A stretch of 64,000 nt of DNA from Flavobacterium sp. (GTDB taxonomy: Bacteria > Bacteroidota > Bacteroidia > Flavobacteriales > Flavobacteriaceae): NCBI RefSeq assembly GCF_039595935.1, contig NZ_JBCNKR010000006.1:496001-560000 (forward strand). The letters are read 5' to 3'. Made by a program: the position numbers and the translations under genes. Positions 4,479 through 39,500 of the stretch are shown here, one piece after another. The notes below the pieces were generated by a model that did no database searches, was not told the DNA's origin, and saw only the letters and a list, made by a program, of their open reading frames with translations. How positions within the stretch are numbered: the first letter of the stretch is position 1; the number at the start of each line of letters is the position of its first letter.

Positions 4479-4538
4479 GAATACTGGTTGTTACAAAAAA
4501 AGATTTCACTTAAAGTTTTGCTCTAAACAAAGCTGTTA

Positions 4539-4591
4539 ATTTTTTGTATATAAACTATTTATGCTTTTAAAATAGTTTATATACAAAAAAT
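4539..4591. terminator. 22-bp perfect palindrome between convergent genes
   Basis: Arms 4539-4560 and 4570-4591 are perfectly complementary over 22 bases with a 9-base loop. It sits between the 3' ends of the OmpA-domain gene (+) and the elaA-like gene (-), which fits a bidirectional terminator. The stem is almost pure A/T and no separate T tract follows on either strand, so the terminator role is inferred from position. Confidence 0.6.
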
Positions 4592-4620
4592 AGAAACAAT
4601 GTTGCATTAAGCACTTTAGA

Positions 4621-13303: not shown

Positions 13304-14391
13304 CGTATTTTAACGCTCAAATTTACAATGTACTTTTCTGCTGAATCTTCTATTAATAAAGCGTGTCGGTTTGGATAAACTAATTTTAATCTTTCGATTG
13401 TGTTTTGTAAACCAATTCCGGAATCAGACTGTACAGAAAATGTTTTTTTATTAGAAACGTATAAAGTTAGTGTTTCTTCTTCAATATCAATTTTAATCGT
13501 AATTTCTGATGTTTGATCCGGATTGACTCCGTATTTGAATGCGTTTTCTATAAATGAAATCAAAATAAGCGGTGTTATTACCTTTCCATATGTATTTCCG
13601 GTTACGTAATAATCGACATTTACGGTATTTCCTAAACGTGTTTTTTGGAGTGAAATATAATTGCTTATGTAATTGATTTCCTTGTTTAAGTCAATTTCTT
13701 CATCATTTGAATTGGTCATGATGTATCGCATCAACTCCGAAAGCTGAACTACTGCATCTGGAGTTTTGTCGTCTTTTTTTAAGGCCAGGGCATAAATGCT
13801 GTTTAGGGTATTGAATAAAAAATGCGGATTGATCTGCGCTTTTAAAAAGGCTAATTCTGATTTTACTTTTTCTTTTTCTACATTTTGCAGCCTGCCGGAA
13901 ATAGCAAAAAGTAAACTTGAGATTACACCTATTAAATATACAAGTGCGGTGTGTCCATATTGTGTTGGCGGACCTCCGGCAAATTCAAATGACATAGGTT
14001 CATTTCTATGCGGCGGTGGCGGAAATCTTCCTTCAAATGGTTTTGGATGAATTGGGAATTTTCCTGAATGATATTCAAAATCTAAAAAGTTTCTGCTTGG
14101 ATGATCTAAAACAGTTGATATCCAAAGAAAAAATAAAAGAAAAATGACTATTATGAAATAGTACAGCAGTTTCTTTTCTGAAAAATATAATCTTGGAATT
14201 AGATAATAGTAATTGATGTAAAAGAAACAAAGAAGTGTAAAATAAATAAACAAATATATGCGGTCATGCGGGTTTGTGTACAAATGCGGTAATGAAAAAA
14301 CGGTATTTGTAGACGTGAACGCATACGGCAGAAATAAAAAAGCGAGGCACAGAACTAAGTGTTTCGCATAAAATGAAAATTTTGCTTTCAT
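13300..14391 (-). CDS. LytS-type sensor histidine kinase
   Basis: A 363-residue membrane kinase of the His_kinase/HATPase class that pairs with LytTR regulators. Four hydrophobic segments are visible (about 10-28, 45-65, 74-94 and 148-166). Between the third and fourth lies a 50-residue outside loop rich in Pro, His and Phe. The phospho-acceptor is His190 in AQINPHFLFNTLNSIY, followed by an ATPase region with the N box (SFIENAFKYGV) and a glycine box (SGIGLQNTIERL). The family has no canonical DHp H box, as here. The 4-base overlap with the downstream regulator gene indicates co-expression. Confidence 0.92.
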   Translation of the reverse strand: MKAKFSFYAKHLVLCLAFLFLPYAFTSTNTVFSLPHLYTNPHDRIYLFIYFTLLCFFYINYYYLIPRLYFSEKKLLYYFIIVIFLLFFLWISTVLDHPSRNFLDFEYHSGKFPIHPKPFEGRFPPPPHRNEPMSFEFAGGPPTQYGHTALVYLIGVISSLLFAISGRLQNVEKEKVKSELAFLKAQINPHFLFNTLNSIYALALKKDDKTPDAVVQLSELMRYIMTNSNDEEIDLNKEINYISNYISLQKTRLGNTVNVDYYVTGNTYGKVITPLILISFIENAFKYGVNPDQTSEITIKIDIEEETLTLYVSNKKTFSVQSDSGIGLQNTIERLKLVYPNRHALLIEDSAEKYIVNLSVKIR

Positions 14392-14555: not shown

Positions 14556-15530
14556 TTAATCGTGAACCGGACTCTGCGTACAAGGACAGTTACTGATAGA
14601 TTGTAAGAAATCGAATCCGATGGTTACAACGTGTGTACCTGTATTGTAGTTTCCTAAATCGTTGAACATAACCTGGTATGAATACCCAAAATAGAATTTA
14701 GATTTCATGAAACCTGCCATTGGCCCAACTGATAATGGTTTTGGAAACTGGTCATTTAAGAAACGATATGAAACTCCAATCCAATAGTAATCTTCATAAC
14801 GATTGTATCTTCTGTATTTGAAGTTGATATCGGTTGTTGAACGCTGGTCACTTGCAAAATACTGGAAGAAAACTGAAGGCTCATATTCTATACGGCTATT
14901 TTCTGCATCGCGGAAAACATATCCCGTATAAACCTGATAATTTGAAAGTAAGTTTGGTTCTACTCCTCTGTATTTATCAGTGTTTTTCTTCAAAACGTTA
15001 TTAGCATTAAAACTCAAATAGAAATCTTTATTACGGTATAAAGCACTAATGTCAAAGTTATTATTTGCATTGTATCTGTTATCTGTAACCGTAGGATCTA
15101 TAACCGGATGTTCAATTGTTGTATTGAATTCATCAGTATCAATTCTAAACGTATTGAAGTTGTATGAAATACCAAAAGATAAATACTGCTTAGAATAATA
15201 ATCCAGAATAAGGTGGTGTGCAAAAGAGACTTTTGCTCCGGTTTGTCTAGTGTATCCGTTTTTATCGTTGTATAACGAAATACCCACACCCGAACGGTCT
15301 AAAATTCTAAAATCGGCATATAGCGATTGGTTTTGCGGAGCATCTTTAATTCCAACCCATTGTGTTAAACCATTAGCTCTAATTCTAAGGTTATCGCCAA
15401 TACCTGCATATGCAGGAGAAAGCACGAAAGGGTTATCAGCAAGATACTGCGTAAACACTGGTAGGTTTAACTCTTGGCTGTAACTTGTTGTTACAGCCAT
15501 GAGTACTAAGGATAAAATAAACTTTTTCAT
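14556..15530 (-). CDS. sprF: SprF, PorP/SprF family outer-membrane protein required for SprB export
   Basis: A 324-residue PorP/SprF-family protein with a signal peptide ending in TTSYSQ. The family pattern is present: LPVFTQYLADNPFVLSPAYAG at the start of the mature protein, QNQSLYADFRILDRSGVGIS, then alternating strands typical of an outer-membrane beta-barrel ending in VVTIGFDFL. In F. johnsoniae, SprF is needed for secretion of SprB by the type IX system. Here it lies immediately downstream of sprB (42-base gap) as the last gene of the operon. The start at 15530 (MKKFILSLVL) is preferred over 15557 because it produces a proper signal peptide. A weak hairpin lies past the stop (14518-14531). 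Confidence 0.93.
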   Translation of the reverse strand: MKKFILSLVLMAVTTSYSQELNLPVFTQYLADNPFVLSPAYAGIGDNLRIRANGLTQWVGIKDAPQNQSLYADFRILDRSGVGISLYNDKNGYTRQTGAKVSFAHHLILDYYSKQYLSFGISYNFNTFRIDTDEFNTTIEHPVIDPTVTDNRYNANNNFDISALYRNKDFYLSFNANNVLKKNTDKYRGVEPNLLSNYQVYTGYVFRDAENSRIEYEPSVFFQYFASDQRSTTDINFKYRRYNRYEDYYWIGVSYRFLNDQFPKPLSVGPMAGFMKSKFYFGYSYQVMFNDLGNYNTGTHVVTIGFDFLQSISNCPCTQSPVHD

Positions 15531-15572
15531 TTTAATAATTTTTTTAGATAACATCATGGGGCTATTATTTTG

Positions 15573-18500
15573 TTATCTGTATAAAGTGAAGTGTCCAACA
15601 AACTCTCTTGAATCATTCACATCATTTAGTTTAAGAACATACCAGTAATCACCTGTTGGTAATTCCTCGCCATTGTATCTACCATCCCATTTTTGACCAT
15701 AATGATATTTAGCAATTTGACGTCCGTATCTATCGAAGATCGCAAACTCAAGATTCGTGTAAATATTTGTACAGCCAGGTCCCCAACCATCGTGAGTTCC
15801 GTTTGGTGTAAAGTAATTGTCAAGACAAACATCAATATAAGTCATTGGAACTACAATTGTGTCTATACATCCATTTTGATCTCTTACTGTAATTGTATAA
15901 TCTCCAGATTTGTAGATTTTGAATTTAGTATCAGATGTAAATGGTCCTCCTTCGAAACTGTATTCGTAAGCTGGTTTTCCACCAATTGCAGTTACAGAAA
16001 TTATGTTCATCTCTGGTTGTCCTGCAGCTAATTGAATATGTAACTTATCAAATGCTTCGATAGTGAAACTTGCTGTTGGCTGGATACATCCGTTAGTATG
16101 TCTAGCATAAATTACGTGTGTACCTGGAACTACATCTTTAAATTCATTTTCTAACTGGAATGGACCAGCGTTAGAATCTAAAGCGTAATCAACATCAGCA
16201 GGGTCTACAGATGGATCGATAGTTACTGTTACTGTATTAGTTTCACAACCATATACAACTTCCGCAATCGGATCAATGTCAACTGCTAGTGGAACAAGAA
16301 CTTCAATTTCATAAGTACAACCATTTGTATCTTTTACATAAGCTGTATGGTTACCTCCTGCAAGACCATCAAATGTATGCTGAGCTCCAGTAATTGGAGT
16401 AAACGGTCCATTTGGTAAATCAAGGCTTACTGTGTATGGAGCTGTTCCACCAGTGATATCAATAGTAAACTCACCGTTTAAGTCACCTTTACATTGCTCA
16501 CCTAATATTGAACCAGGTGTAACTGCAACTGCAAGTGGCGCTGCTGGCTGAGTAATTACAACATCAGTCATAATGTAACATCCGTTTGCATCCTGAGCGA
16601 TAATTGTATAAGTACCTGCTGCAAGTTTATCGAATACGCTAATTGTATCAAACTGGTTCAAGTCTGGTGAAATCGCATATTTAATAACTCCTGTTCCTCC
16701 TGTCGCGGTTACGACAATTTTACCATTGTTTTCACCGAAACAAGAAACATTTGTTGGAGTGAACTGAGCTTGTAAAGCAACTGGCGGCTCGTTGATTGTA
16801 ATTGTTGCTGACGCATAGTTACAATCACCGCTATCTACTTTTACAATATAATCACCAATTACTAAGTTCTCGAAGATTCCTGTTGCCTGTGGACCTTGGA
16901 TAACATTTCCTGCTGTATCTTCTAATCTGTAAACATAGTTTCCTAAACCTCCTGTAGCTTCAGCTACGATAACTCCTGTAGCTTCACCAGTACATTTCAC
17001 AACTGCATTTGAAGCATCAATATCAAGGCTAAGTGGTACAATCGGATCAATTACGATTTCATTAGAAACATATCCTACACATCCTACAGCATCTCTTACG
17101 AAGTAGCTGAATGTTCCAACCCCTACCGGGAATGTAACTGATGTGTTAAATGTACCTAAGACAGTTCCGAAACCAGCATCAGTACTATAAGAGTAAGGAG
17201 CTGTTCCACCTACTGCGCTTAACGTAAGCGTTGCCTGAGTTAAACATGTTTGTGATGTAGCTTCTACTAAAGTTGGAACAACTTCTGTAGGTTCTGTAAT
17301 CACAATATTTGTTGAAGTTGCAGAACAACTGAATCCGTCAGTAACAGTTATACTATAAGTTCCAGCACCTAATCCACTGAAAATTGGGCTAAGCTGTGGT
17401 CCAGAAACAATTACTGGATTTGCTGAAAGTATATTTAAAGTATACTGGTAGTTACTTCCTTGTCCGCCTGTTGGAGGATCAACTGTAATAACTCCTGTTT
17501 TATCTCCGAAACATGTTAATGAAGTAGCATTTGCTGTTGCGTTAACCACGATTGGTGCAGGAACAACTAACACTTCTGTAGCTGTTGCAATACATCCTAC
17601 ATTATCTCTAACATTGATAGTATAGTTTCCTGCTGATAATCCTGACCAAACATATTGAGCAGAGTAATCAACTAATGTTGTACCATTCAATACTAATTGG
17701 TATTCATATTTGTTATCCCATCCGCCTGCAGCTGAAGCAGTGATTTCTCCGTCATTATTACCTGTTACACAAGTAATATCAGATTTCGCTGTTGTTACTG
17801 TAAGAGCAGCTGTTGGCTGTTCTATTGTAAATAACGTTGTTATTGTACAGAATGGATTATTTACTAATGTAGCTACAACTGTGTACTGACCGGCAGTTAA
17901 GTTAGAAATTCTAACTGGTCCTGCATTTGCAGAAGTTCCGTTGCTTGGAACTGGTCCTGTAATTACATAGTTAAATGCTCCTGCGTCATCTGTTGGGTTT
18001 AATTGATTATCAACTATAGTTAAATCAACACTTCCGTCTGCAGTACCGTAACAGATTTGTCCGTTAACTGGAGCTACATTAATATCGAATGTGTTAGGAT
18101 CATTAACATAATGAACTTGTGTAATAGAACATCCTGTTGCTGGATTCGTTACGGTAATTAAATAATTTCCGATAGTTAATCCTGTGAAAACACCATTTGT
18201 ATTTGATTGATTGTATGTGTTTCCGTCTGTTCCTGCAACATTATAATTTAATATCGCTGGTGTACCTCCAATTGATGTTACAGATACTGTAATATCTTCG
18301 TTAGAAATACATGTTACAGCAGTATTTACAGCAACATTTATCTGATCTAAACGAATGAAAGGATTTACTCTAATAATTCCTGTACTAGATCCCATACATC
18401 CTTTATCATCATAAACATTTACAGTATAATCACCTCCTGCGAAATCAGATTCAGTGTAGAAATTATCAGCCCCTTTTTGAACCTGAACTCCGTTTTTAAA

Positions 18501-21500
18501 GAACTCATAAATTGTATAAGTTCCTGAACCACCAGTAACATTGTTTACTGTAATAACTGCATAGTTTGGCGCATTTGTACCTGCTGTACAGCTGTATTGT
18601 GCTATAACTGGCAATCCTACTGTAATTACATTTGGCTCACTGATTCTAATATCTTCAGAATCAACACATCCTCTTCCTGATGTTACTGTTACTGTATAAT
18701 CTCCAGCCTGAAGGTTATCAAAAATATTTGATGTCTGAGCTGGTCTGTTTACCGCTACACCTAAAGCTGTAGTTCCTGTTAATGTGTAAGTGTAAACCGG
18801 GTTATCATTTACACCAGGAGAACTTGGGTCGATGTTAGCTGTAATAGATCCGTCAGAGTTACCTCTACAAGAAACATTAGTTCCTGTTAAAGCAAGTCCA
18901 GTAATAACTGTTGCCGGAGCGATTTCAATTGTAACACTAAAGTCACAAGTAGTTAATACGTCTCTTACTCTGATCACGTGTGTACCAGGAGCAACATTAT
19001 TAAATACTGCTGGTGTAGTATTTACGATTACACCTCCGTCAAGAGTATATCTGTAGTTCGCAGTTCCTGAACCACCTGTTGCTGTTGCAGTAATTACACC
19101 GTTATTAAATGTACAGCTTGGTAATGCTGTTACTGTAGTTTCTAACTGTAATGCCGGAGTAATAGTTACTGCAGCTGTTACTGTAGTTGTACATGCGTTT
19201 GCATCTCTAACTGTTATGTCATAAGTTCCAGCAGCATTTACTGTGAATGTTGGGCTCGTTTGGAAACCAGCTCCGATGCTATACTCGTAAGGTGCTACAC
19301 CTGAACCAACAGTAACTGTAAATGTATACTCACCTGCTGCCGTTGGACATTGGCTAGAAACATTAGCTGTAATTGCACTTGGTAATGGATCTACTGCAAT
19401 TGTGATTGGAATAAACGTTTCACAACCTTTTGAATCCAGAACATAAGCTCTCCAGTTCAAGTTCACAGCCGGATCAAGAACAGCGTTATTACTATTTGTA
19501 TAGTCAGCAGCTGTTGGTGTTCCTGTACCTGGCACGAAAGCATATTGGTAATCTGGTGTTCCTCCTGCAGCCGTTACGCTTACCTGAGCACCTGAATTAC
19601 AATTAGCATTTACGTTAGTTGCCTGAACTAATGTTAATACAGCAGGTTCACCAACTGTTACAGAAGCTGAAGCTGTACATCCTGTTGTATTATCAGTAAC
19701 TTGAACTGTGTATGTACCAACTGGTAAGTTTGTTAATGTTACCACTTTTCCAACCTGAGTTAAAGTTCCTGTTGTTGGGCCTCCAATTAGAGCAGCTGTA
19801 TAAGCTCCTCCAAAATTGTCAACATCAAATTTCACTGATCCGTTTGAACCTCCATTACAACTTACGTCGTTGATTAACTGACCTGCAGCTGTAATGTTTA
19901 CTAAAGGATCAACTGTATAGTACATATCGTCTTTACATCCGTTTGCGTCTGTTACCTGGAATAAGTAAGTATCTGCTGTTAGACCTGTAAATATTCCGTT
20001 TGCAGCTCCTGTAACATTTGTTACTGCGCTTGCTGGAGAAAGAATCTCGTAGTGTAATGCACCAACACCGTGAGAAACAGTTACAGTAACTGTACTTGTA
20101 GTGTTAGCAGCTGGTGTACACCAAATGTCTGTTCCTGTTACAGAATCAATTGTTGGTGGATCAAGTGCCGGAATTGTTACACTTACTGGTACTGCAATAA
20201 TACAGTTGTTAGCATCTTTTACATAAGCTGTAACTGTTCCTGCATTGTAAGTTGTATACGTATTTGTTGCACTATAATTTGTTCCACCGTTGAAACTGTA
20301 TTGGTAAGGCGCTGTTCCTGTTCCTGCAGTTACATTAATTGTAACAACAGCTGGCTGCGTTGCATTACCTGTTCCGCAAGTTAAACTTTGAGTTAATACT
20401 GCTGTTGCAGCAAGAGCAGCTGGTTCTGTAATAGTAGCTGTTATGCTTACTGATGTACATTGCTTAGCATCTTGAACAACAATGTTGTAAGTTCCCGCAG
20501 TTAATCCTGTGAATATGTTTGAAGCCTGGAAAGCTCCTCCATTGATACTGTACTGGTATGGTGTGATTCCATTAGCAGCAGTAACAATAATACTTCCGTC
20601 ATTTCCACCTACACAACTAACATTTGTTTGTGTAAATGTTGCTGTTGGAGTTGTTGTTGGAGTTACTACTACCGGAATAGAAACTGCCTGACATCCCTGA
20701 CTGTCTGTTACTCTGAAAGTATAAGTTCCAGCTGCAGTGGCAGTATACGGTGATGTCGCAGGGAAATATCCTCCACCATCAAAGTCAACTTCGAAACTTG
20801 TGTATGTATGAGTTCCCTGAGTTGCCAATAATGTGATACTAGCTGATCCTGCACAAGTTAAATCTTGTGTTAAAGTAGCTTGTAATAATAATTCCTGATT
20901 TAATGTATATGGACTTGAAACGATACATCCGTTACCATCTTTAATATAGAATGTGTAGTTTCCTGGTGCATTCAATACAAAGTTAGGACTAGATTGGTAT
21001 CCGTTACCAATACTGTATGTTGGCGTTCCAACATAAGTTCCAGTAATTGTAATTGGAACTGGACCTCCTGTGTAGCAGTATAATCCCGCAGATGAATTGA
21101 TTGTTGGCAACGCATCTGTACCAATTGTTACATTAATCATAGTTGTACATCCATTTGCATCCATAGCGTAAACATCCCATTGAGTGTTAACTGTTGGATC
21201 TAATACTGCACTTGCTACGGTATCGTAGTCTAATACGTTTGGAGTAACTCCATCCTGAACGAACACGTATTTGTAAACTGGTGTTCCACCGTTAGCTAAA
21301 ACACTAACTTTTGCACCAAAATTACAATTTGCATTTACATTGCTTACTAAGTTAAGGCCTATAGCTGTTGGCTGAGCCACAACTACTGAAGCAGTTGCTG
21401 TACATCCTGTAATATTATCTGTAACCTGAACTGTGTATGTTCCCGGAACTAATCCTGTAACATTTACTGTGTTTCCAGTTTGAGTTAATGTACCTGTTCC

Positions 21501-24500
21501 AGCAGTTAATACCGTAGTGTAAGTTCCAGCATAATTAGCAACAGTGAATTTAACTGCACCGTTTGATTGTCCGTTACAAACTACATTGCTCACTAACTGA
21601 CCTGAAACTGTAATATTAGTTACTGGGTTAATAGTGTATGATTCTTGGTAAGTACATCCGTTTGCATCAGTCACCTGGAATAAATAAGTGTCTGGAGCTA
21701 ATCCTGCAAATACAGCAGATGTTTGTTTAGCTACAACAATTGGAGAAAGAATCTCATATTGTAACGTTCCAACACCATTGATTACGTTACTGATTGTAAC
21801 TGTACTTGTTGTATTAGCAGCCGGAGCACAATAAATTGGTGTACCATTAATATCCATATTTGTTGGCGCATTTAACGCTGGGATAGTAATAGTAACTGGC
21901 ACTGCAATGATACAGTTGTTAGCATCTTTTACATAAGCTGTAACTGTTCCTGCGTTATACGTAGTTAACGTATTTGTCGTGCTGTAATTTGTTCCACCGT
22001 TGAAACTGTATTGGTAAGGCGCTGTTCCAGTTCCTGCAGTTACGTTGATTGTAACAATTGCCGGCTGTGTTGAGTTACCTGTTCCGCAAGTTAAACCTTG
22101 AGTTAACATAGCAGTAGCCGCTAAAGCTGTAGGCTCAGTAATTGTAGCAGTTACGCTTACTGAAGTACATTGTTTAGCATCACGAACAACAATGTTGTAA
22201 GTTCCTGCAGTTAATCCTGTGAATATATTTGAAGCTTGGAAAGCTCCTCCGTTAATACTGTATTGGTATGGAGTGATTCCATTTGCAGCAGTAACAATAA
22301 TACTTCCGTCATTTCCTCCTACACAACTAACATTTGTTTGTGTAAATGTTGCTGTTGGAGTTGTTGTTGGAGTTACTACTACCGGAATAGAAACTGCCTG
22401 ACATCCCTGACTGTCTGTTACTCTGAAAGTGTAAGTTCCAGCTGCAGTAGCCGTGTAAGGTGATGTTGCAGCAACATATGCTCCACTATTAAAGCTAACC
22501 TCAAATCCTGTGTAAGTAAGAGTTCCTTGAGTCGCCAATAATGTGATACTAGCTGATCCTGCACAAGTTAAATCTTGTGTTAAAGTAGCTTTCAATAACA
22601 ATTCCTGACGTAATGTATAAGGAGCTGAAACGATACATCCGTTACCGTCTTTAATATAGAATGTGTAGTTTCCTGGCGCATTCAATACAAAGTTAGGGCT
22701 AGACTGGTATCCGTTACCAATGCTGTATGTTGGTGTTCCAACATAAGTTCCAGTAATTGTAATTGGAACCGGACCTCCTGTGTAGCAGTATAATCCCGCA
22801 GATGAATTAATTGTTGGCAACGCATCTGTAGCAATAGTTACATCAAGTTTTACTGTACATCCGTTTGCATCTTTAGCATAAACATCCCATTGGGTGTTTA
22901 CAGTAGGTGCTAATACTGCACTTGCACTATTTGTGTAATCTCCAGCAACTGGTGTAACACCGTCCTGAACAAATGCATAAGTATAGTTTGGTGTTCCACC
23001 GTTTGCTAAAACAGTAACTTTTGCACCGAAATTACAATTTGCATTTACATTGCTTACTAAGTTAAGACCTATAGCTGTTGGCTGAGCCACAATTACTGAA
23101 GCAGTTGCTGTACATCCTGTAACATTATCCGTAACCTGAACAGTGTAAGTTCCCGGAACTAATCCTGTAACATTTACTGTGTTTCCAGTTTGTGTTAATG
23201 TTCCTGTTCCAGCTGTTAATGTTGCTGTGTAAGTTCCTCCGAAGTTTGCAACTGTGAATTTAACTGCACCGTTTGATTGTCCGTTACAAATTACATTGCT
23301 TACTAACTGACCAGATACTGTAATATTAGTTACCGGAAGAACAGTATACGATTCTTGGTAATAACAACCATTAGCATCTGTCACCTGGAATAAATAAGTG
23401 TCTGGAGCTAATCCTGCAAATACTGGTGAATTTTGTTTCGCCACAACGATTGGAGAAAGAATTTCATATTGAAGAGTTCCTACACCGTTAATTACGTTAC
23501 TGATTGTAACTGTACTTGTTGTGTTAGCTGCCGGAGCACAATAAATTGGTGTACCGTTAATATCCATATTTGTTGGCGCATTTAACGCTGGGATAGTAAT
23601 AGTAACCGGCACTGCAATGATACAATTATTGGCATCTTTTACGTAAGCCGTAACTGTTCCTGAATTGTATGTAGTTAACGTATTTGTTGAGCTATAATTT
23701 GTTCCACCGTTGAAACTGTATTGGTAAGGCGCTGTTCCTGTTCCTGCAGTTACATTGATTGTAACAATTGCCGGCTGCGTAGCATTGCCTGTTCCGCAAG
23801 TTAAACCTTGAGTTAACGTAGCAGTTGCTGCTAAAGCTGTAGGCTCAGTAATAGTAGCCGTTACGCTTACTGAAGTACATTGTTTAGCATCACGAACAAC
23901 AATGTTGTAAGTTCCTGCAGTTAATCCTGTGAATATGTTTGAACTCTGGAAAGCTCCTCCGTTTATACTGTACTGGTATGGTTCTATACCATTAGCAGCT
24001 GTAACTGTTACGCTTCCGTCATTTCCTCCAATACAGCTTACGTTAATTTGTGTAAATGTTGCTGTTGGAGTTGTTGTTGGAGTTACTACTACCGGAATAG
24101 AAACTGCCTGACATCCCTGACTGTCTGTTACTCTGAAAGTATAAGTTCCAGCTGCAGTTGCAGTATAAGGCGATGTTGCAGCAACGTATCCTCCACCATT
24201 AAAGTCAACTTCAAATCCAGTGTAAACAGTAGTACCCTGAGTTGCCAATAATGTGATACTAGCTGATCCTGCACAAGTTAAATCTTGTGTTAAAGTGGCT
24301 TGTAATAGTAATTCTTGGTTTAATGTATAAGGAGCTGAAACGATACATCCGTTACCGTCTTTAATATAGAATGTGTAGTTTCCTGGCGCATTCAATACAA
24401 AGTTAGGGCTGGCCTGGTATCCGTTACCAATGCTGTATGTTGGCGTTCCAACATAAGTTCCTGTAATTGTAATTGGAACCGGACCTCCTGTGTAGCAGTA

Positions 24501-27500
24501 TAATCCCGCAGATGAATTGATTGTTGGCAATGCATCTGTACCAATAGTTACATTAATCATAGTTGTACAACCATTTGCATCCTTAGCATAAACATCCCAT
24601 TGAGTGTTTGTTGCTGGAGCTAATATTGCACTTGCACTATTTGTGTAATCTCCTGCATTTGGCGTTGCACCGTCCTGAACAAAAGCATATGTGTAGTTTG
24701 GTGTTGCACCAGAAGCAATAACTTCCACTTTTGCACCAGAATTACAATTTGCATTTACATTGCTTACTAAGTTTAGAATTAGAGCAGTTGGCTGAGTAAC
24801 AACCATAGAAGCTGTAGCCGTACATCCTGTAATATTATCTGTAACCTGAACTGTGTATGTTCCAGGTACTAATCCTGTTACGTCAACAGTATTTCCAGTT
24901 TGAACTAATGTACCTGTACCTGCAGTTAATGTTGCTGTGTAAGTTCCTCCGAAGTTTGCAACTGTGAATTTAACTGCACCGTTTGCTTGTCCGTTACAAA
25001 TTACATTGCTTACTAGCTGACCTGCAACAGTAATATTAGTTACCGGATCAACTGTATATGATTTTTGGTCTTTACATCCATTTGCATCTGTTACTTCGAA
25101 TAAATAAGTATCAGGAGCTAATGATGTAAATATTCCGCTCGCAGCACCAGAAACATTTGATGTTGCACTAGCTGGTGATAAAATTGCGTAAGATAAAGCA
25201 CCAACACCATTTGTAGTAGTTATAGTAACTGTACTTGTTGTATTAGCAGCAGGAGCACAATAAATTGGTGTTCCTGTAATATTTGTAATTGTTGGTGGAT
25301 TTAACGCTGGAATATTAACACCATTTGTTAAAGTGAAAATACATCCTTTAGCATCTTTAACTAAAACATTGAATGTTGTTCCAGCGAATGATTCGTATGT
25401 ATTTGTACTTGTGTAAGTTGTTCCTCCATCAAAACTATATAAGTATGGAGATGTACCACCTGCACCTGTTACAGTTACAACAGCTTTTGTCGGTACGTTA
25501 CCTGCAGCACATGTTAATGCTGTTGTAAGAGTCGAAGTCGCTGTTAAAGCTGAAGGTTGTGCAATTGTGATTGCTGCACTTGGATAAACACAAGATTTAG
25601 CATCTCTTACAGTAATAATATATGAATTTCCTGCAGCTAATCCTGTAAATACATTTGACGTTTGGAAAGCTCCACTATCTAATTGATATTCATAAGGACC
25701 AACTCCTGAAGTAACATTTACAGTAATTGTTCCATCTGCACCACCATTACAGCTAACATCTGTTTGAACAGTTGTAAATACTGTAGACTGAATAGGGTCT
25801 AAAGTTAAAGTTGTTGTTGCCTGACATGCCACTGGTAATTTAGCATCACTAACTCTAAAGATATAGTTTCCTAGAGCTGAAGTTGAAAGAACATTACTTG
25901 CCATAGTAGTATATGTCATTCCTCCATCTGTAGAATATTCATAAGTATAAGCTGTATTGTAACCTCCAGTAGCTGTCAATGTAATTTCAGCGTTTGGAGT
26001 TGCAGTACAATCTAACTCTTTAGTTAATAGAGCATTTAATTGTAATTGTGGCTTAACTTCATAAGTAGTTGTAGCTGTACAACCGTTTCCGTCTTTAATT
26101 ACTAATGTATAAATTCCAGAAGCATTAAATGTAAAGTTTGGACTTGATTGGAAAGTACTTCCGTTTACACTATATATTGCTCCTCCAACAATTGCAGGAT
26201 CAACGGTTCCTGTAATTGTAAATGTGAATGGGTTTCCATCATAACAAATTGTTGCTGGTGCTGTAATAGTAGGATCAGCATCTTTGTTTAATGTTACGGC
26301 TGCAGATTTGATACATCCGTAAGCATCTTTTGCGTAAGCAATATAGCTTCCTGCATCTCTGTTGAAAGTATTTGTAGCCGCCCAACCTGCTGTAGCCGCT
26401 GTAGGTACAGGGTCTGAAGCAAGCAATAATAAATAAGTATATGGAGCTGTTCCGTCTTTTGCAACAGCAGTGATTATACCTGAATTTGCGTTACAATTAG
26501 CATTTTTAGTAACTGAAGCCGTAACTGATAAATCAATAGCCGATTCAGTAATATTAAATGTATTTGAAGCAATACTACAACCTGCATTAGTAGCACCAGC
26601 CGTTTCTCTAATTACAACAACGTAATTTCCGAAACCTAAAGCACCAAGATTGTTTATCACAAGATTTCCATTTGCCGGAATAGTTCCTGTTCCTGTAAAT
26701 CCAGTACTAACCATAGTGAAAGCATTGTAGATTTCGTAGCTTATTGGCGTAGCAATTGGATATGTACTGTTTATTGTAAAACTAACATTACCGTTATTGC
26801 TTCCTCTACAAGTAACATTATTAGATGTTAATCCGCTAACTGTTAAAGTAGAATTTGTAGGGATTGGCATTGTCGCTGTTTCATAATAGTAACAACCTGT
26901 ACCCGCATCATGTACGATAAAAGTATATTTAACACCTGGCAATAAGTTTGGTATTGTTGTTTTTTTACTTCCCGGATTTACTCCTGGAGGAACTCCTACA
27001 ACGTCTTCATCATACCATGGTAAAGTAGTTGGGCCTGTATAAACCATTCCCGGACCTGTATAAACAGCGAAGTGGAATGGACCATTACCTGTAATATTAG
27101 TAGACGCAGCACCAATAGCTACAACTGCTGATCCTAATGAAGAACAGTCAGCTGGCGGAGCTGTTACCGTAATATCTAAATCATCTGGCGGTGAAGCAAC
27201 AAATACATTTTGTTGAATATTTGTACATCCATTCGCATCTGTAATAATGATTTGATATAAACCAAAGTCAACAACTTCAAATACTGCTGTAGCACCTGTT
27301 TGACCTGTAATTTGTTTGTTATATCCGTTTACTCCTGTTACATGGTAGGTATAATTTGGTGTTCCACCTGTAACAGAATTAATTGTAATAGACCCTAAAG
27401 AAACACCACCTGCACCACAAGTAATTGGTGTAACTGTATAACTTAACACAATTGGTGTTGGCTGAGCAATTGTAATGTTAAATGTATCTGTACAACCTTT

Positions 27501-30500
27501 TGCATCAGTTACAGTAACTACATAATCGCCCGCAGCTAAACCAGATGTTTGTGAACCGTAGTTAACTCCAGTCGTAGTATTTAATACAGTATATACAAAT
27601 GGAGCCTGACCTTTTGTATTATCGATAGTAATAGCGATTGCTGCTGTAGCATCACCATTACAGTTAATGCTTTGTGTTTGTACAACTCCTGTAATTTCAG
27701 GTAATACTGGTGTAGTAACCGTAATTGAAGAAGATGTAGCTGTACATCCTCTAGAATCTGTTACTGTAAAAGTATAAGTACCTGCTGTACTTGTAGTAAA
27801 TACATTTCCAGCAAATGTTCCTGTATTAGGAGAAGCTGTATAAGTAAATGGTCCGAATCCTCCAGCTGGAGTCAAAGTAATTTGAGCATCCGTCGGTGCA
27901 GAACATGTAATGTCTTTGTCTAATACTGCATTTAATGTTAATGCGTTATTTACTATAACAACATTACTATCAGCAGTACATCCGTTACCATCTTTAATCT
28001 TAATAGTATAACTTCCCGGAGTAGTTACAACAAATGTATTTCCAGCCTGGTAAGAAGCTCCGCCATTAATACTGTAGCTTAATGGAGCCACTAAACCTGT
28101 ACCTGGAGTTGCCGTAATAGTATAGCTTCCTACACCAAAACACTGACCTGCTGCAGAAGCTGTAACAGTTGGTGAAGGATCTTTTGCAATTGTGATGTCA
28201 ACTTTAGTTGTACAACCATTAGCATCAATTACATAAGCATCCCAGTTTAGATTAACAGCTGGGTCTAAGTTTGCTTTATTGTTATTAGAATAAGCACCTA
28301 CCGGAGCTCCATCCTGAACAAATGAATATCTGTAAACCGGTGTTCCTCCTGCTGCTGTAATCGTAACCGCTGAAGTACTTACAAAACAGTTTGCATTAAC
28401 TGCAGCGTATGTTGCAGATAAAGCTGCTGCCGGCTGATTAATTGTTATTGAAGTATTAGCTGTACAGCCTGTTACTTCATCTGTAATAACAATTGCATAC
28501 GTATTTGCAGTTAAGTTTGATAAAGTTACTGTAGCTGAACTAACTCCTGTTACAGCAGTACCACCATTAACTGTATAAGAATAAGTAGATCCGAAACCAG
28601 AAACGTTTAATCTGATAGATCCTGTATTTCCTCCATTACATAATACATCACTTAATTTACTAGCCAAAACTGTAATTGGTGTTACAGGACTAACTGTGTA
28701 AGATTCTGTATAGTAACATCCGTTTGCATCTGTAACTTTAAACATATAAGTACCTGGCGCAAGATTTGGGAAGGCATTAGATGTTTGTTTAGCAATGATT
28801 ACCGGAGATGGAGCAATTGTTTCGTATTGTAAAGTTCCAACACCATTAGTTGCCGTTAAAGTAACTGTAGTTGTTGTAGCCGTACAAGTAACTGCTGGAT
28901 TTGCAAAAGTTAAATCTGTTGGAGGGTTCAGTCTCAATAAAGTTCCTGATCCTGTTACTGGACATCCTTTTGCATCTCTAACTGAGTATGTATATGGCTG
29001 ATCAGCTCCATTATCGTTTAATGTTAAAACGTTGTTTGAGCTGTATCCGCTTCCGTTGAAGCTGTATTCGTAAGGAGCAGTTCCTGTTCCTGCTGTAACA
29101 TTTACTGTAACAGTTCCTGCAACTTTTCCGTTTGAAGCATTACAAGAGAAAGGAACTACTGTAGTTGTAGCAGCTAATGTTAAAGGCTGTGTAATGGTAA
29201 CTGCCACTGATCCAGTACAGTTTTTACTGTCTCTTACATAGAAAGTATAAGTACCAGCTGCTAATCCTGTGAATACCGGATTAGTAGTAAATGGTCCTGC
29301 AACATTGCTGCTATAAGTAAATCCGCCTGATCCTCCAGCTCCTGTTAAAGTAACTGAACCATCAGCAGCAGCATTACAGCTTGCATTTACCTGAGCAGCT
29401 GTAACTGTTGGGTTTGAAATTGGAGATACTGTAACAACTGCTGTTCTTGTACAGCTGTTAGAATCTGTAATTACAAACGTATAAGTGTCTGCATTTGCAG
29501 GTGTCACTGTATATGTAAATGTTGGCCCTGCAATAGGTGCACTTGGAGCACTTGGAGCACCAGCACCTTTTTGTACTGTATAAGTATAGGTAGATCTACC
29601 ACCGCCAATTGTAACTGTAATAGTTGCATTTGGAGTAGCTGTACAATCTAACTCTTTTGTAACTGTACCCGCAGCTGTTAATTGTGGGTAAACTACTGTT
29701 GCAGCCGGTGCCGAAACGATACATCCGTTTTTGTCTTTTACAGTAACTGTATAAGTTCCTGCAGCAACTGTAAATGTATTTGACGCTTGGTAAGTAGTTC
29801 CATCAATGCTATAAGTCAATGGAGCTAAACCTGTAGCTGTAGCTGTAATAGTAAATCCGCTTCCGGAAGCTGTACACTGATTGTTAACTGTTACATTAGT
29901 TATAGCCGGCATAGAATCCAAGATAACTGTAACAGTAGATTTAGCAGTACATCCGTTTGCATCTTTCACATAAACATCCCAAACTAAATCAGCTCCAGAA
30001 TTAGTATCTACAGTAAGTGTAGCGCTATTCACATATGCCGATGATGGCACTGTTGATGGACTTTTCGCGAAAGCGTAAGTATAATTTGGTGTTCCGCCTG
30101 CAGCTGTAATTGTAATTTGAGAATTATCATTATTACAGTTTACGTTTGTAGCAACTGCACTTGTTATCGCTAAAGCAGCCGCTGGCTGATTAATTGTAAT
30201 TGAAGCATTAGCCGTACAACCTGTTGCTGTATCAGTTACCTGAACTGTGTATGTTCCTGCAGCAACATTTGATAATGTTAATGTGTTTCCAGACTGCGTT
30301 AAAGTTCCTGATCCTAAAGTTCCTGCTGTTAAAGTAAATGTATAAGCACCTACTGTAGCATTTCCAGAAACTGTATAAGTTCCTGATCCTGTACTTCCGC
30401 CTCTACATAAAACATCACTTGTTTTATTTCCTGTAACTACAATCGGGGTAACAGGATTTACAATATAAGGTTCTGTGTAATAACATCCATTTGCATCTGT

Positions 30501-33500
30501 AACTCTGAATGTATAAGATCCAGGAGCAAGGTTTGCGAATGAATTAGAAGTTTGTTTTGCTCTGATCACTACAGATGGAGCAATTGTTTCATATTGTAAA
30601 GTTCCAACACCGTTAGTTGCTGTTAAAGTAACTGTAGCTGTTGTAGCTGTACAAGTAACCGCTGTTGAAGCAAAAGTTAAATCTGTTGGAGGGTTCAGTC
30701 TCAATAAAGTTCCTGAACCTGTTACCGGACATCCTTTTGCATCTCTAACTGAGTAAGTATATGGCTGATCAGCTCCGTTATCGTTTAATGTTAAAACATT
30801 ATTTGAACTGTATCCGCTTCCGTTGAAGCTGTATTCATAAGGAGCAGTTCCTGTTCCTGCAGTTACATTAACTGTAACTGTTCCTGCAACTTTTCCGTTT
30901 GAAGTATTACAAGAGAATGGAACTACAGTAGTTGTAGCTGCCAATGTTAATGGCTGCGTAATTGTAACTGCCACTGATCCAGTACAGTTTTTACTGTCTC
31001 TTACATAGAAAGTATAAGTACCTGCTGCTAATCCTGTGAATACCGGATTAGTAGTAAATGGTCCTGCAACATTGCTGCTATAAGTAAATCCGCCTGATCC
31101 TCCAGCTCCTGTTAAAGTAACTGAACCATCAGCAGCAGCATTACAGCTTGCATTTACCTGTGCAGCCGTAACTGTTGGATTTGAAATTGGAGCAACTGTA
31201 ACAACTGCACTTCTTGTACAACCATTAGAATCTGTAATTACAAATGTATACGTGTCTGCATTTGCAGGTGTTACTGTGTATGTAAATGTTGGTCCTGTTA
31301 TAGGTGCACTTGCTGCGCTAGGAGCACCAGCACCTTTTTGTACTGTATAAGTATATGTAGATCTACCACCGCCAATTGTAACTGTAATAGTTGCATTTGG
31401 AGTAGCTGTACAATCTAACTCTTTTGTAACTGTACCCGCAGCTGTTAATTGTGGGTAAACCACTGTTGCAGCCGGAGCCGAAGCAATACATCCATTTTTA
31501 TCTTTTACAGTAACTGTATAAGTTCCGGCAGCAACTGTAAATGTATTTGAAGATTGGAAAGAAACTCCATCAATGCTGTATTCTAGCGGAGCTAAACCTG
31601 TAGCTGTAGCCGTAATTGTAAACCCGCTTCCTGAAGCTGTACACTGATTGTTAACTGTTACATTAGTTATAGCCGGCATAGAATCCAAGATAACTGTAAC
31701 AGTAGATTTCGTTGTACATCCGTTTGCATCTTTCACATAAACATCCCAAGCTAAATCGGCTCCAGAATTAGTATCTACTGTTAAAACATTACTAGCGCCA
31801 TAAGTCGATGATGGTACTGTTGATGGGCTTTTCGCGAAAGCATAAGTATAATTTGGTGTTCCGCCTGCAGCCGTAATTGTAATATTAGAATTATCGTTAT
31901 TACAGCTTACGTTTGTAGCAACTCCACTTGTTATCGCTAAAGCAGCTGCTGGCTGATTAATTGTGATTGAAGCATTAGCCGTACAGCCTGTTGCAGTATC
32001 TGTAACTGTAACGGTATATGTACCCGCTGTTGCGTTTGCTAATGTTAATGTATTTCCAGATTTTGTTACTAATGCTGTAGCAGCTGGAGGAGTTACAGTA
32101 AATGTATAAGCACCAACTGTTGCATTACCAGAAACTGTAAAAGTTCCAGATCCTGTGTTTCCACCTCTACATAAAACATCGCTTGTTTTGTTTCCTGTAA
32201 CTACAATTGGAGTAACCGGATTTACAATGTAAGGTTCTGTATAATAACATCCGTTTGCATCTGTAACTCTGAAAGTATAAGATCCAGGAGCAAGATTTGC
32301 AAATGAGTTAGAAGTTTGTTTTGCTCTGATTACTACTGAAGGAGCAATAGTTTCGTATTGTAAAGTTCCAACACCATTAGTTGCTGTTAAAGTAACAGTA
32401 GCTGTTGTAGCTGTACAAGTAACCGCTGTTGAAGCAAATGTTAAATCTGTTGGAGGGTTCAGTCTCAATAAAGTTCCTGAACCTGTTACAGGACATCCTT
32501 TTGCATCTCTAACTGAGTATGTATATGGCTGATCAGCTCCATTGTCGTTTAATGTTAAAACGTTGTTTGAGCTGTATCCGCTTCCGTTGAAGCTGTATTC
32601 GTATGGAGCAGTTCCTGTTCCTGCTGTTACATTAATAGTAACTGTTCCTGCAACTTTTCCGTTGGAAGCATTACAAGAGAATGGAACTACTGTTGTAGTT
32701 GCTGCTAATGTACTTGGCTGAGTAATAGTAACAGCTACAGAACCTGTACAACCTTTGCTATCTTTTACATAGAAAGTGTAGTTACCAGCTGCTAATCCGT
32801 TAAATACCGGATTAGTTGTAAATCCTGTTGTAGCATTGGTGCTATAAGTAAATCCGCCTGATCCTCCAGCACCTGTTAAAGTAACTGAACCATCAGCAGC
32901 TCCGTTACAGCTTGCACTTGTTGGTACACCTGTAACTGTTGGGTTTGTGATAGGATCAACTTTAGTTACTGCAGTAGCCTGACATCCATTAGCATCTGTA
33001 ATTACAAATGTATAAGTGTCTGCATTTGCAGGAGTAACTGAGAAAGTAAATGTTGGACCCGCAATAGAAGCGCTTGGCGCACTAGTTGCTCCAGATCCTT
33101 TTTTAGATGTATAAGTATATGGCGCTTTTCCTCCTGTAATAGTTACTGTAATAGTAGCATTTGGAGAAGCCGTACAATCTAATTCTTTTGTAACAGCACC
33201 TACAGCTGTTAATTGTGGATAAATAACTAATGCCGTTGCAGTTGTAGCAGTACATCCGTTTTTATCTTTTACAGTAACTGTATAAGTTCCTGCAGGTACG
33301 TTAAATGTATTTGAAGCCTGGAAAGAAGTTCCATCAATACTATATTGCAGAGGAGCCAATCCTGTTCCTGTTGCTGTAATAGTAAATGAATTTCCAGAAC
33401 CTGTACATTGGTTATTATTTGTTGCAGTTACAGTTGGTAAATTATCTGTAGCTACTGTAACTGTATTTTTAGCGATACAGCCATTTGTATCTTTCACATA

Positions 33501-36500
33501 AATATCCCAAACTAAATCAGCTCCGGAATTAGTATCTACAGTAAGTGTAGCACTACTTCCATAAGTTGAAGTTGGAACAGTTGATGGGTTTTTCGCGAAA
33601 GCGTAAGTATAATTTGGCGTTCCGCCTGCAGCTGTAACTGTAATTTGAGAGTTATCGTTATTACAGTTTACATTAGTAGCAGTTGCTGTAAATGTTAATG
33701 CATTTGCAGGCTCAGTAATAACAATACTTGCTGTGTTTGTACATCCTGTTGCATTATCTCTAACCTGAACAGTGTATGTTCCTGCGGCAGCATTTGCTAA
33801 TGTTAATGTATTTCCTGTTTTTGTTACTAATGATGCAGCAGCGGCAGGAGTTACTGTATAAGTATAAGCACCAACTGTTGCATTACCAGAAACTGTGAAA
33901 GTTCCTGATCCAGTAGCACCACCTTTACAAAGTGCATCATTAGTTTTATTACCAACTACTGAAATTGGTGTAACAGCGTTGATGATATAAGCTTCATCAT
34001 AATAACATCCGTTTGCATCTGTAACTCTAAAGTTGTAAGTTCCTGCTGCTAATCCAGAGAATACACCTGTAGTATTTGTAGCTGCAGATGCTGCCGGAGA
34101 TGTAATTGCGTATGTTAAAGGCGCTACTCCATTTGTAGCAGTAGCAGTAACAGTAGTTGTTGTAGCTGTACAAGTAACTGCTGCATTACTAAATGCTAAA
34201 TCTGTTGGAGGATTTAATCTATTAATTGTAATGGTTTGAACCGGAGTTTTACAACCTTGAGCATCACTAACTACATAAGAAATAGTTTGGTTTGTACCGT
34301 TATCAGTTACAGATAATGTACGTGTGCTTGTAAATGTTGTTCCTCCGTCAAAACTATATTGATAAGGAGCTGTTCCAGTTGTTGGAACTGCAATTGTTAC
34401 AGTAGCAGCTTGTTTTACATTTGATGCATTACAAGTAAATGTTGTAGCTGTAGCTGTAGCAGTTAATGTTGTTGGCTGCGTAATAGTGATATTTCCTATT
34501 GCAGATTTACAACCTTTACTATCCATTACCTGATATGTGTAATTTCCGGCTGCTAATCCTGTATAATTAGACTGTGCAATAAATGTTGAACTTCCGTTAA
34601 AGCTATAAGTGTAACCTCCTGATCCGCCAGCACCAACTAATTGTATAGAACCTGTAGAAGCTCCATTACATGTTGCATTAACTTTAGTTGCTGTAACTGT
34701 TGGATTTGAAATTGGGTTTACAACTGCACTAGTTGTAGTAACACAACCTTTAGAATCAGTAATTTCAAAAGTATACGTATTAGCCGTTGTAGCCGTGTAA
34801 ACAAATGAAGTACCTGTTACATTATTGCTAGATCCAAAAGATCCTGAACCTATTTTAACTTTGTATGTAAATGCACTTGTACCTCCAGTAATAGAAACTG
34901 TAATAGTTGCATTTGGAGATGTAGTACAATCTAATGTTTTAGAGATCGTTGCGCTTCCTTGTAATTCAGGAGCAATTATAATATTATTAATTGGGAAAGG
35001 GCAGTTATTACTATCCGTAACCAAAATATTGTGTGGACCAGGTCCTACATTTGTAAATGTATTTGATGTTTGTGCAGCACCTCCATCTAAACTATATGTT
35101 AAGGTACCCGTTCCTGTAGCAGTTACAACAAGTGTTGCTTGATTTATTGAATCATAACATAAATCTGAGCTTGCCGCTAAATAAGCTGTTGGTAGAGTTG
35201 GTGAAGTAATATTTACAGTTGCAGAAGCCGGAGAAGTACAAGAATTTGCATCTCTAACGACTATTCTGTAAGTTCCAGAAGCTACATTTGTAAATACATT
35301 AGAAGTTTGGAATGGTACTACAACTGTAGTTCCATTATTTTGTCTTAATTCATATTGATAACCCGGTGTTCCTCCTGTTACAGTTGCAGTAATAGAAGCA
35401 CCACTTGTACAAGTAGGCTGAGCCGTTACCTGAGCAGTAACTGCTAATGCTTGAGGTGCAGTTATAGGCTGAGAGAATGGGAAACTACAAGTCGATGCGC
35501 TATTGTTAAAACGAATCTGAATTGCGTATGTCTGGCTTGTTAAACCTGTTACTGTTACTGGAGATACTTTAGAGTTTACCCAAGTAGCACCATTATTCAT
35601 AGAATAATCGAATCCGTATGGAAGGTTAAAGTTTTGCGCTGCTAAAGTGATTTCTCCGTTATTTCCTCCGTTACAAGTAACGTTTTTAACTCCTGTAATA
35701 GAAGCAGAAAATGCTTTATTGCTGTCTATAACAATAGGGAAATCTTTTTGAGTAACACATGATTTTGGAATCTGACGTACCCAGATATCATCTAGTACTA
35801 AGTCATTACCTCCTCGAGAAGTATTTTGTGAACGAATTTTAAAAGTAAGATTTGTATTGTTGCCTGGATTCAAAGATATACTGATTGGAACCCATTTTGT
35901 TCTATTAGGATCATTTACATCTTTTGCTATTTCACCGGTTACATCCGTAGCTACAACATTACCAGCACTATCAACCAACTCGATTATTATCTTAGGTGGA
36001 TCTCCTGCAACCCCTACATTCAATAAATTACCTACATATAGGTCAACCATTACTGGTTGATTTGGTATTACATCTATAATAGGTTTGCTATATAAAACTC
36101 CTCCAGGACCAGCTGCTTCTCCAATATTTACTAATAAATATCTTCCATTAGCATCTGTACCATTTGTTGTATGATCCTTAAAGTGATACCATGCATTATC
36201 ATTTCTCCAGAAGAAACTTGTAACTGAATATTGGTTATCTTCAACTGAACGCGTAGGAGTTCCATTTAAAGAACAAGTATATGGCGGGTTAACTCTTTGG
36301 TCATTGAAACAGTAAGCAGCTGCAATACCAGGAGTTGTTGTAGTTCCACCAGAACCAAAATTTTCAATTAATAAATTACTGTAAGTTGGTACAGCAATTA
36401 GTTTATATTTTACGCTTACTGTGTGAGGTCCAGAAGGAACATTTACAAAAACATTAGAAGGAGTATTTGTATTTAATACATTATCTAAATAATATTCATA

Positions 36501-39500
36501 ACTATAGTTTGCTCCACCATTATTTGTTACCGTTACCGTACTTGTTGCCGTTCCATTACAGTTAAATACCGGAGCACCAATTGAAATCGTAGGATCTGCA
36601 GGTTTTGGGTCTAAAACCACACCTGCCATTGGGAATGTGCATCCTTTTGAGTCTTTAACATAAAGTGTATAAGTACCCGGAGCTACATACGCTTCATTTG
36701 AAGTTCCGTAAGTTGAACCACCATTAAAACTATAAGTATAAGGAGGTGTTCCTCCTTGAGGATTTGTGATACGTACTTTACCGTAACCTGTACCAGCTGG
36801 ATCACAACCTGCTAATTCAGCAACACCCGCAGATGCACTTAATGCATTTGCAGGAGCTGTGATAGTAATATTAGTTGCAGGATCAGTACAAGTTACTCCA
36901 GATAGAGTATATCTAACCAAAACATTGTAAGACCCTCCTGTTAAATTTGAGAAAACAGGAGTACTGCTAAATGTTACGCCATTATCGATACTGTATTGCA
37001 AAGTATATCCATTTGCATTTGTAACATTGATATTGATTTGTGCTGTGTCACCATTACAATTGATTTCGGTATTTGTTACTGTGTAAACCGGTTTTGGATT
37101 TCCAGTCACAGTAATAGATGTTGTGGCCTCACAGTTATTAGAATCAACTAAACGAATATTATAAGTACCCGCAGTTGTAAATGTTATTTCATTTGATGTA
37201 AGGAAAGTAGTCGATCCGTTTACAAAGAAGAAATATGGAGCAGTTCCGCCAGAACCAGATAAAGTAATTTTTCCGTCACTGCAGGCAGTAAGAGGAGTTG
37301 TTAATGCTGCAGTTGCAACTAAAGGAGCTGCAATATTATTGATAGAAATAACACTAGACACATCACAAGTTGGTACAGGTGTACCACCAACAGGAGCATT
37401 TGTAACTCTTACTCTATAAGTTGTTCCAGGATTTAAATTTGGGAAAGTATAATCTGATGCGGCAATTGGACCTGCACTGTTTACCAATGCATTTGTCGCA
37501 TTATTATATAAGTAATAATAATATTGCGGATCAATATTAAGCGCCCCAACTTTTATACTTCCTTTATCTCCATAACAAGTTGGCTGAGTAACAGCTGTAC
37601 TAATCTGTAAATCTACTTTTCTGATTAAAATATTAGGAACCGTAAAAATACATGGATTAGTAGTTACACCAACTTGTCTGATATAAACAGTATATGAACC
37701 TGCGTTAGTAATATTAAATGTATTACTTGATTGATATGCTCCAATTGCACCACTAGGATCTGTTCTGATAGCATATTCATATCCTGCAGGCACACCTCCA
37801 ATAGTAATATTTCCAGGAACACCGCAAATAATATCTTTATGAGTTTCTGTTGGACTTAGTGAATTCGTATATACATTAAAGTAAAAACGGTTGTAACATC
37901 CTCCCGCATAATTTAATGTTACACGGAATTGTCCCGCCTGATTTGCTGTATAACTCTGACCGGTTCCTACACTTGACCAATTATTTTTACAATCATCACT
38001 TTCATTAGCACAATTTTGGTTTGTAACGGGAGTACATGCTCCTCCTTCTGTTAATTTTTCCCAAACTATACTAGTCGCATCAGAAATGGTTGTCGTAATT
38101 TGTCTTGTAGCATTTGAACCACACAAGAAAATATTTGGTAATTTTTTTCCATCATTCGGACAAGTTACTACCTGATCTGCAAAAGGTATTACCGGATTTT
38201 CTACTGTGCTTCCAAATCTTGTGACAACAAATGACTGGTAAATTGATCTACAAGGTGCAGCTGCCAGATTGTATACATAATAGGTTCCAGGATCTTTTAC
38301 AACAAGTGTTTGCCCTTTTCCTATTTGTACAGTTCTTGCTTCATCACTATACCATGTATAATCTGTATAACCATTAGCAGCTGTCAAAGTAATATTCTCA
38401 CCACAAAGTGTAACATTGGTTGTGTATTTACATCCGTCAACTCCAACTAAAAAGTTAGTTGCTTTTGGAACTAAAATACATCCTGTATTCGTGTTAACAC
38501 TCGGATCATCAGAAATTGTAAAACTTGTATTTTGCTGTCCTTTATATGTTGCGTAAGCCGAGTTGTCAATACTATTTGAACAAGCCTCACTTAAACTTTG
38601 ACAATCAGGAACAACTTTAACTTTAAAGCTGATTATTTTTTCAGGGTCTCCTACTTTAACAATGTTATTGTTTATTGCAAAAACAATCTCTCTAGTAGTG
38701 GGATTATAATTTTGAACCGTTACACCTGTTGGCAATGAAACAATATCTGCAGGATAGTTGAAAATAATATTAATAGGCAGCTGATCTCGAATCGTAAACG
38801 AAGTCGCATTATCATTACCCGTATTTTTAAAACCAATTTCATAATTTAACTGCTGCCCCAAAGTAACATTTTGCCCCCCAATATTTACCCCTTTATCGTT
38901 TTTTACAATTTTTGTTAAAACAATTTTTGGTTCAATAATTTCAACGTTGAAGGCATTAAAGAAAAGTCCATAACCATCTCCACCCGTACTAAGCTTTAAT
39001 TGTGCCGAAGTATCATTATTTTTAATAATCGCATTTGCAGCATTATTCAGGTTTATAATCCCTGCTTCAAAACCTAGTGTATTACCACTGCTTGGTGATC
39101 GGTCAGTATAAGGCCCGTTTACATCATTAATTGTACTGTTAAAGAAGTTATTTACCGGACGTTCTGTCGTAAAAATATCAACATTGTTAACAGAGTATTT
39201 ATCTCCTGTAAGGTTAACGTCTCCTTCTAATGCTGCGAAAGCTAATTTTGCTTTTACAACTCCAGTAGGAATAGTTTTGAAACCTGTAAGATCATAAGTT
39301 ACCGGAGCACTTGACGCCTGAATCCAACGAAAACCATCGAAAGAAGTGATATATTTTGCAGATGATTTTGGATCTTCATAAACCACAAATAAATTCCAGC
39401 CTGCAGAAAAACCACCATTGATATTACCTCTTGCTGAAATAATATTGGCAACTGTATAAGTTCCCTCAGGATTTGCTAATCCCTGAACCATAGATGTCAA

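Follow-up and report, generated by a model that had tools for sequence, protein, structure and literature searches.

A 64,000-nucleotide (nt) stretch of Flavobacterium sp. DNA (NCBI RefSeq assembly GCF_039595935.1, contig NZ_JBCNKR010000006.1, positions 496,001 to 560,000; hereafter the window) encodes a SprB-type gliding adhesin, and the repeats of this protein allowed us to interrogate how such giant surface filaments may be built. The immunoglobulin (Ig)-like modules of the adhesin form two long arms around a distinct central block of seven modules (Table 1). Across relatives the two arms almost always match in length, they have changed length together repeatedly, and their modules covary in antiparallel register. 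We conclude that SprB is very probably a fold-back filament, an antiparallel hairpin of two strands whose tip is the central heptad.

Cutting the array at the first cysteine of each module gave 63 modules (19152-34964), which belong to seven types (A to G) that follow one another in fixed order nine consecutive times, as the original prediction had read from the letters. Mean module identity is 66% at a lag of seven modules, 55% at lag 14 and 46% at lag 21, compared to 31-34% at every other lag in the range 1-24. The nearest neighbor is of the same type for 60 of the 63 modules, with all three exceptions in copy 5. The seven type letters can be placed on a module tree with 8 changes, where 6 is the minimum possible and exactly 6 suffice without copy 5; 200 label shuffles all need at least 36, and the recurrence of the types in order is thereby borne out. 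Self-comparison of residues 1651-7000 gave 570, 1140, 589, 1177 and 588 amino acids (aa) as the five top offsets, with the peaks at 570 and 588-589 residues being those expected beforehand. The period had been put at 1710-1885 bases. Its lower end is correct, while the upper end is 1896 nt (570-632 aa between the first cysteines of the first modules of successive blocks). Two cysteines are found in nearly every module, with 24-28 residues from the second to the first cysteine of the next module. The heptad cassette is not confined to the window protein, as other proteins of Flavobacterium and of further genera in the family also have it.

The nine blocks are not equivalent. The original prediction held them to be nine tandem copies; nine blocks do exist, but the fifth is distinct, and the array is better described as four heptads, a center and four heptads. 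Copy 5 is far more divergent than the other blocks and contains two long modules (112 and 105 aa). A hidden Markov model (HMM) of the center scores 728 bits at the central heptad and 393 at the next best heptad of the window, and after iteration it has a near-full match in 103 of 105 proteins. Heptads on the N side and the C side average 0.44 identity to each other, whereas adjacent heptads inside one side share 0.64-0.92. The closest named orthologs of the central heptad are in F. soyae, F. defluvii and F. panici. Among the matches listed, the longest open frame with such a center has 11177 aa (G259:C1:4100695-4102614; G and L numbers denote genomes and loci).

The center HMM and a conserved 13-module tail served as landmarks for counting modules in orthologs. 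At E <= 1e-80 the center was matched in 159 of 398 genomes of the genus, and a named collection of 318 relatives contributed 80 kept loci. From the matches that were fetched, which are a subset of all matches, 194 complete distinct proteins were counted, setting aside repeats of the same center sequence and 29 sequences that failed on completeness or on the score limits (G023, L209 and L301 among them). The proteins follow a simple rule: 9+k modules on the N side, 7 in the center and 13+k on the C side, with the same k on both sides and observed values of -3, 0, 7, 10, 14, 21 and 28. Raw counts (N,C) in most proteins are (6,10), (9,13), (16,20), (23,27), (30,34) or (37,41), plus exceptions, and the raw N count is one too high where the module HMM also matches an N-terminal domain. 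Automatic counting gave the same k for both arms in 184 of the 194 proteins (60 with k = 7, 37 with k = 0, 36 each with k = 14 and k = -3, 10 with k = 21, 4 with k = 28, and a single protein, in G021, with k = 10). Independent arms with the same k distribution would be equal by chance in about 23% of cases, a rough guide given the relatedness of the proteins. Nine of the ten automatic mismatches were settled by inspection of hit positions, and the tenth, L339, is uncountable owing to an assembly gap in its N arm, where duplicated flanks enclose a run of X.

These counts also bear on how the array grew. Growth had been attributed to duplication of a seven-module cassette, which the lag-7 period and the tree support, except that the cassette is not the sole step: k = -3 and k = 10 involve three modules, on both sides at once, and seven modules are thus the usual but not the only unit. 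In the two k = -3 proteins examined for this (G134, G097), the three-module shortfall adjoins the center on both sides. It is scarcely credible that the array consists of nine equal cassettes multiplied by ordinary unequal recombination with its halves unrelated to each other. Such a history accounts for the strict period of seven; it does not account for a distinct fifth heptad, for equal k on both sides in the automatic counts, or for symmetric three-module steps.

Apparent exceptions to equal arms are of several kinds. In several proteins, additional C-side modules sit past the conserved tail and before the sorting domain (G181, G277, G274, G142, G094, G023); the centers of G023 (306 bits) and G094 (416 bits) are weak, and both were read by hand. 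The extra arrays beside the sorting domain in L092-L093 (G277) and L088 (G181) differ in kind, one having an apparent three-module period (BBG repeated) and the other being almost uniform; both resemble a base stalk that evolves on its own. Counting effects (a match of the module HMM to an N-terminal Ig-like domain, a displaced start, a truncated locus, or hits that were missed or split) explain G250, G121, G245, G230, G152, G080, L179, L188, L189, L197, L236, L248, L314, L326, L341 and L342. L320 and L321 have a different N-terminal region, yet nine arm modules. In L209 (Flaviramulus basaltis) an early in-frame stop interrupts the C arm, and the modules go on in frame beyond it as 23, 7 and 27. 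Separately, G519 has three loci with a SprB center (L320-L322) inside about 100 kb, two of them with the different N-terminal region.

Mapped on a tree of 98 N-terminal regions, k requires a minimum of 30 changes; this is a quick tree with long branches, 22 of 95 inner branches weakly supported and paralogs included, and k was set by hand from inspection for 13 of 100 proteins, with 2 of the 100 left out. Arms that lengthen or shorten roughly in step should have correlated peak heptad identities. The peak identity of neighboring heptads is indeed correlated between the arms (Spearman 0.87, n = 44 proteins with at least two heptads per arm), with the caveat that the proteins are related, some being near copies, and that the P value cannot be taken literally.

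The most probable explanation for the matched arms is that the chain leaves the cell along the N arm, with its 9+k Ig-like modules, reverses direction inside the central heptad near module D5, and comes back antiparallel along the 13+k modules of the C arm to the C-terminal domain, which SprF would hold at the outer membrane. The arms would lie side by side in fixed register, with A facing G, B facing F, C facing E and D facing D, and the heptad in the middle of the sequence would become the outermost, surface-gripping tip. A step in one arm would then need a match in the other for the N-terminal region to stay docked near the base, a seven-module step would add one repeat of the two-stranded cable, and modules added beside the sorting domain would extend a single-stranded base stalk alone. 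If the N-terminal region stays docked only when edits are matched, equal k, symmetric three-module steps and a freely varying base stalk all follow. From these patterns we infer three further points: pairing inside one molecule, gripping by the tip, and seven modules as the pitch of the cable. In its full form, we consider it likely that SprB adhesins are antiparallel two-stranded Ig cables of one folded chain, with the heptad as helical unit, a gripping tip in mid-sequence, and a length set by matched edits in both arms.

Antiparallel arms should leave a further trace, since modules equidistant from the tip would be expected to covary. Mean-field direct-coupling analysis (DCA) and mutual information with average product correction (MI-APC) were both run with six residue classes. 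For 13 modules in 151 proteins, the strongest DCA antidiagonals are those centered on D5 (1.08) and on the D5/E5 boundary (1.14), all others being at most 0.32. For 187 proteins, the observed mean was reached by 5 of 20000 and 0 of 20000 label permutations in two settings, and after C halves were swapped between relatives the peak was gone in four of four trials (full 13-module set). Omitting lags under four leaves D5 and D5/E5 as the leading antidiagonals of the full set and D5/E5 as that of the 13-module set with k >= 7. By MI-APC, the highest-ranking antidiagonal falls precisely on D5, both for the full set of 187 proteins and for the disjoint sets with k >= 7 (100) and k < 7 (67), with and without short lags, and this was reached by 0-9 of 5000 permutations. 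Along the full length, offset 0 gives the strongest register for k = 7 (45 of 60 proteins, 1.93), k = 0 (34 of 37, 1.37) and k = -3 (36 of 36, 1.14), and swapping C arms (one swap per class) brings the signal below zero for k = 14, k = 0 and k = -3. Covariation in antiparallel register supports, at the level of sequence, the proposed physical contacts between the arms. It also bears on whether the arms need touch at all: the center might have to lie mid-filament in a straight chain, or a mutational process might alter both sides jointly, and either would equally yield equal k and correlated heptad ages. We regard this as very improbable, as it does not predict that single modules covary in antiparallel register, and extra modules beside the sorting domain, which shift the center off the middle, are tolerated.

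The same contacts could in principle form between molecules, with two straight SprB chains paired head to tail about their centers, and equal arms and antidiagonal covariation would look the same in such a homodimer. We consider this arrangement improbable on two grounds. Both C-termini would be secreted and anchored on one cell, which would give a handle instead of a free filament, and the chain would be too long. With 3.5-4.5 nm per Ig-like module, a chain of 71 modules (three heptads per arm plus the usual bases) would span 250-320 nm when straight and 130-170 nm as a hairpin. The part of a review available to us gives about 150 nm for the F. johnsoniae filament (PMC13104615), which the hairpin fits and the straight chain does not. 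AlphaFold predictions point the same way as a fold at the tip: 13 modules spanning the tip (64 alignment rows) gave a mean predicted local distance difference test (pLDDT) score of 84.2 and a predicted template modeling (pTM) score of 0.48, compared to 84.4 and 0.36 for 13 arm-only modules (44 rows). This contrast is consistent with a better defined arrangement around the tip, read with the unequal alignment depths in mind.

Comparison to known systems places the fold of the modules more firmly than the path of the chain. According to the portion of the source available, F. johnsoniae SprB has 6497 aa (PMC9870892); like the window protein it has SprB repeats, a type B sorting domain and an adjacent SprF-like gene. 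A 6503-aa open frame in G283, probably F. johnsoniae or a near relative, carries three copies on each side of the center, spaced exactly 1701 nt apart on the N side and exactly 1782 nt apart on the C side, whereas the window protein has four heptads per arm. The nearest solved sequence is GhpA of Aureispira (PDB 9flp and others, 5898 aa; profile E 2e-48), which consists, like SprB, of tandem Ig-like modules and is also the best Foldseek match (E 4e-24). SprB modules therefore resemble GhpA in both sequence and fold, although global superposition is poor (template modeling score about 0.2), and the match supports the module fold only. GhpA is a heptamer exported by type IX secretion, and its structures (8 entries, 56 chains) are consistent with seven chains each. 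As a template for folding back GhpA proved unsupported, its neck coming before its base in the sequence. No solved structure was returned at E 0.01 when 1000 aa of the N arm were searched by phmmer, and VIA-align returned mostly single-domain or unrelated Ig-like matches (Z about 8-9), two GhpA fragments included. By their descriptions, SiiE of Salmonella and a 7651-aa Mobiluncus adhesin are very long surface Ig-like chains as SprB is, without its type IX sorting domain; giant Ig-like adhesins such as SiiE are known as straight chains. In the CdiA contact-dependent inhibition proteins the outer tip is also mid-sequence; CdiA is a beta-helix that uses a different secretion pathway, and we know of no matched Ig arms in it. 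In the searchable literature, outside of which the original SprB papers lie, we found no report that SprB has seven-module blocks, arms of matched length or a chain that folds back, and no structure of the whole protein. SprB and its repeats are already known, and the heptads or the hairpin may have been described earlier.

Several observations weigh against a chain that folds back. The one asymmetric gene encountered, locus L301 in the draft assembly G331 (about 140 contigs) and outside the 194, has a frameshift in its C arm and k = 21 versus 14; this frameshift, like the stop in L209, may be either genuine or an assembly error. A mirror-image order of recent duplications in the two arms was not clearly favored, being the better fit in 4 of 13 informative proteins (16 have at least three heptads per arm), with a mean difference of 0.066 versus 0.079. 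The DCA signal is weaker in subsets, both with 13 modules (180 of 20000 permutations for k >= 7, 106 proteins; 821 of 20000 for k < 7, 81 proteins) and with longer stretches (95 of 20000 for k >= 7, 100 proteins; 73 of 20000 for k < 7, 67 proteins), and without lags under four other antidiagonals lead in three of the four. Along the full length, the k = 14 class (32 of 36 proteins) is best at offset +1 (1.40), with 1.36 at offset 0. The k = 7 class keeps a peak of 0.76 after its C-arm swap, and its covariation is concentrated 13-15 modules from D5, a signal that may come partly from two subtypes. A pTM of 0.48 is modest, and its control had fewer alignment rows (44 versus 64). The length argument takes its 3.5-4.5 nm per module from general background, and the identity of G283 is itself inferred. 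Finally, entry titles place the GhpA neck (1403-2314) ahead of its base (4151-5009) in the sequence, which reads as a straight multi-chain fiber.

Table 1. Features of the SprB-type adhesin and its neighboring genes in the window
Feature	Position	Strand	Extent	Basis
SprB-type gliding adhesin	15573-40019	minus	8148 aa	open frame; PF13573 SprB repeats and PF13585 CHU_C
Signal peptide and N-terminal region	37845-40019	minus	aa 1-725	
N-arm base	34965-37844	minus	9 modules (aa 726-1685), insertion of ~210 aa past the sixth	module HMM, gap list
N arm, heptads 1-4	27942-34964	minus	28 modules (A-G x4)	module types, tree
Central heptad, proposed tip region	26046-27941	minus	A5-G5	center HMM, off-type nearest neighbors
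Module D5, proposed turning point	26847-27182	minus	aa 4280-4391	symmetric covariation
C arm, heptads 6-9	19152-26045	minus	28 modules (A-G x4)	module types, tree
C-arm base, conserved tail	15825-19151	minus	13 modules	tail HMM, aa 6955-8074, 985 bits
Type IX secretion type B sorting domain (CHU_C)	15612-15824	minus		E 7e-13, place G000:C6:511612-511824
SprF-like outer-membrane carrier	14556-15557	minus	333 aa	PF11751, E 7.5e-72
Protein with N-terminal PorP_SprF domain	40143-44690	minus	1515 aa	PF11751, E 5.7e-44
Protein with weak Ig-like matches	44692-46170	minus	492 aa	matches under curated cut-offs

The domains of the adhesin and its SprF-like neighbor are those expected of a SprB system. 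Its SprB repeats score 107 bits within 29001-32000 and 65 bits in the center (cut-off 28), and its C-terminal CHU_C domain scores 48-51 bits (cut-off 27), which together point to a SprB gliding adhesin. The first 511 aa of its N-terminal region are matched in 101 of 149 genomes at the family level and in 85 of 150 at the genus level. The neighboring SprF-like product matches PF11751 and has a Cys-Pro-Cys near its C-terminus in translation, in keeping with the twin-cysteine motif given for SprF carriers in the accessible part of PMC12635249. By position, the 1515-aa product would be sprD-like and the 492-aa product sprC-like. A reference title names a published operon of sprB with sprC, sprD and sprF, and judged by positions and domains the same-strand neighbors of the adhesin would fit an operon of this kind. 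A histidine kinase and a LytTR response regulator, which may control the adhesin genes, are encoded immediately downstream of the gene for the SprF-like product and on its strand (12614-14391, minus). Elsewhere in the same genome (5.49 Mb, 8 contigs), eleven places are above the CHU_C cut-off, several of them in frames of 3750-5436 aa beyond the adhesin studied here.

The fold-back arrangement specifies which part of SprB would be outermost, which modules would face each other, and how long the filament would be in each species. If it is true, surface binding should be sought in the center of the protein and not at its N-terminus, and matched copy number around a unique center would be a genetic signature of fold-back filaments, recognizable from genomes alone.

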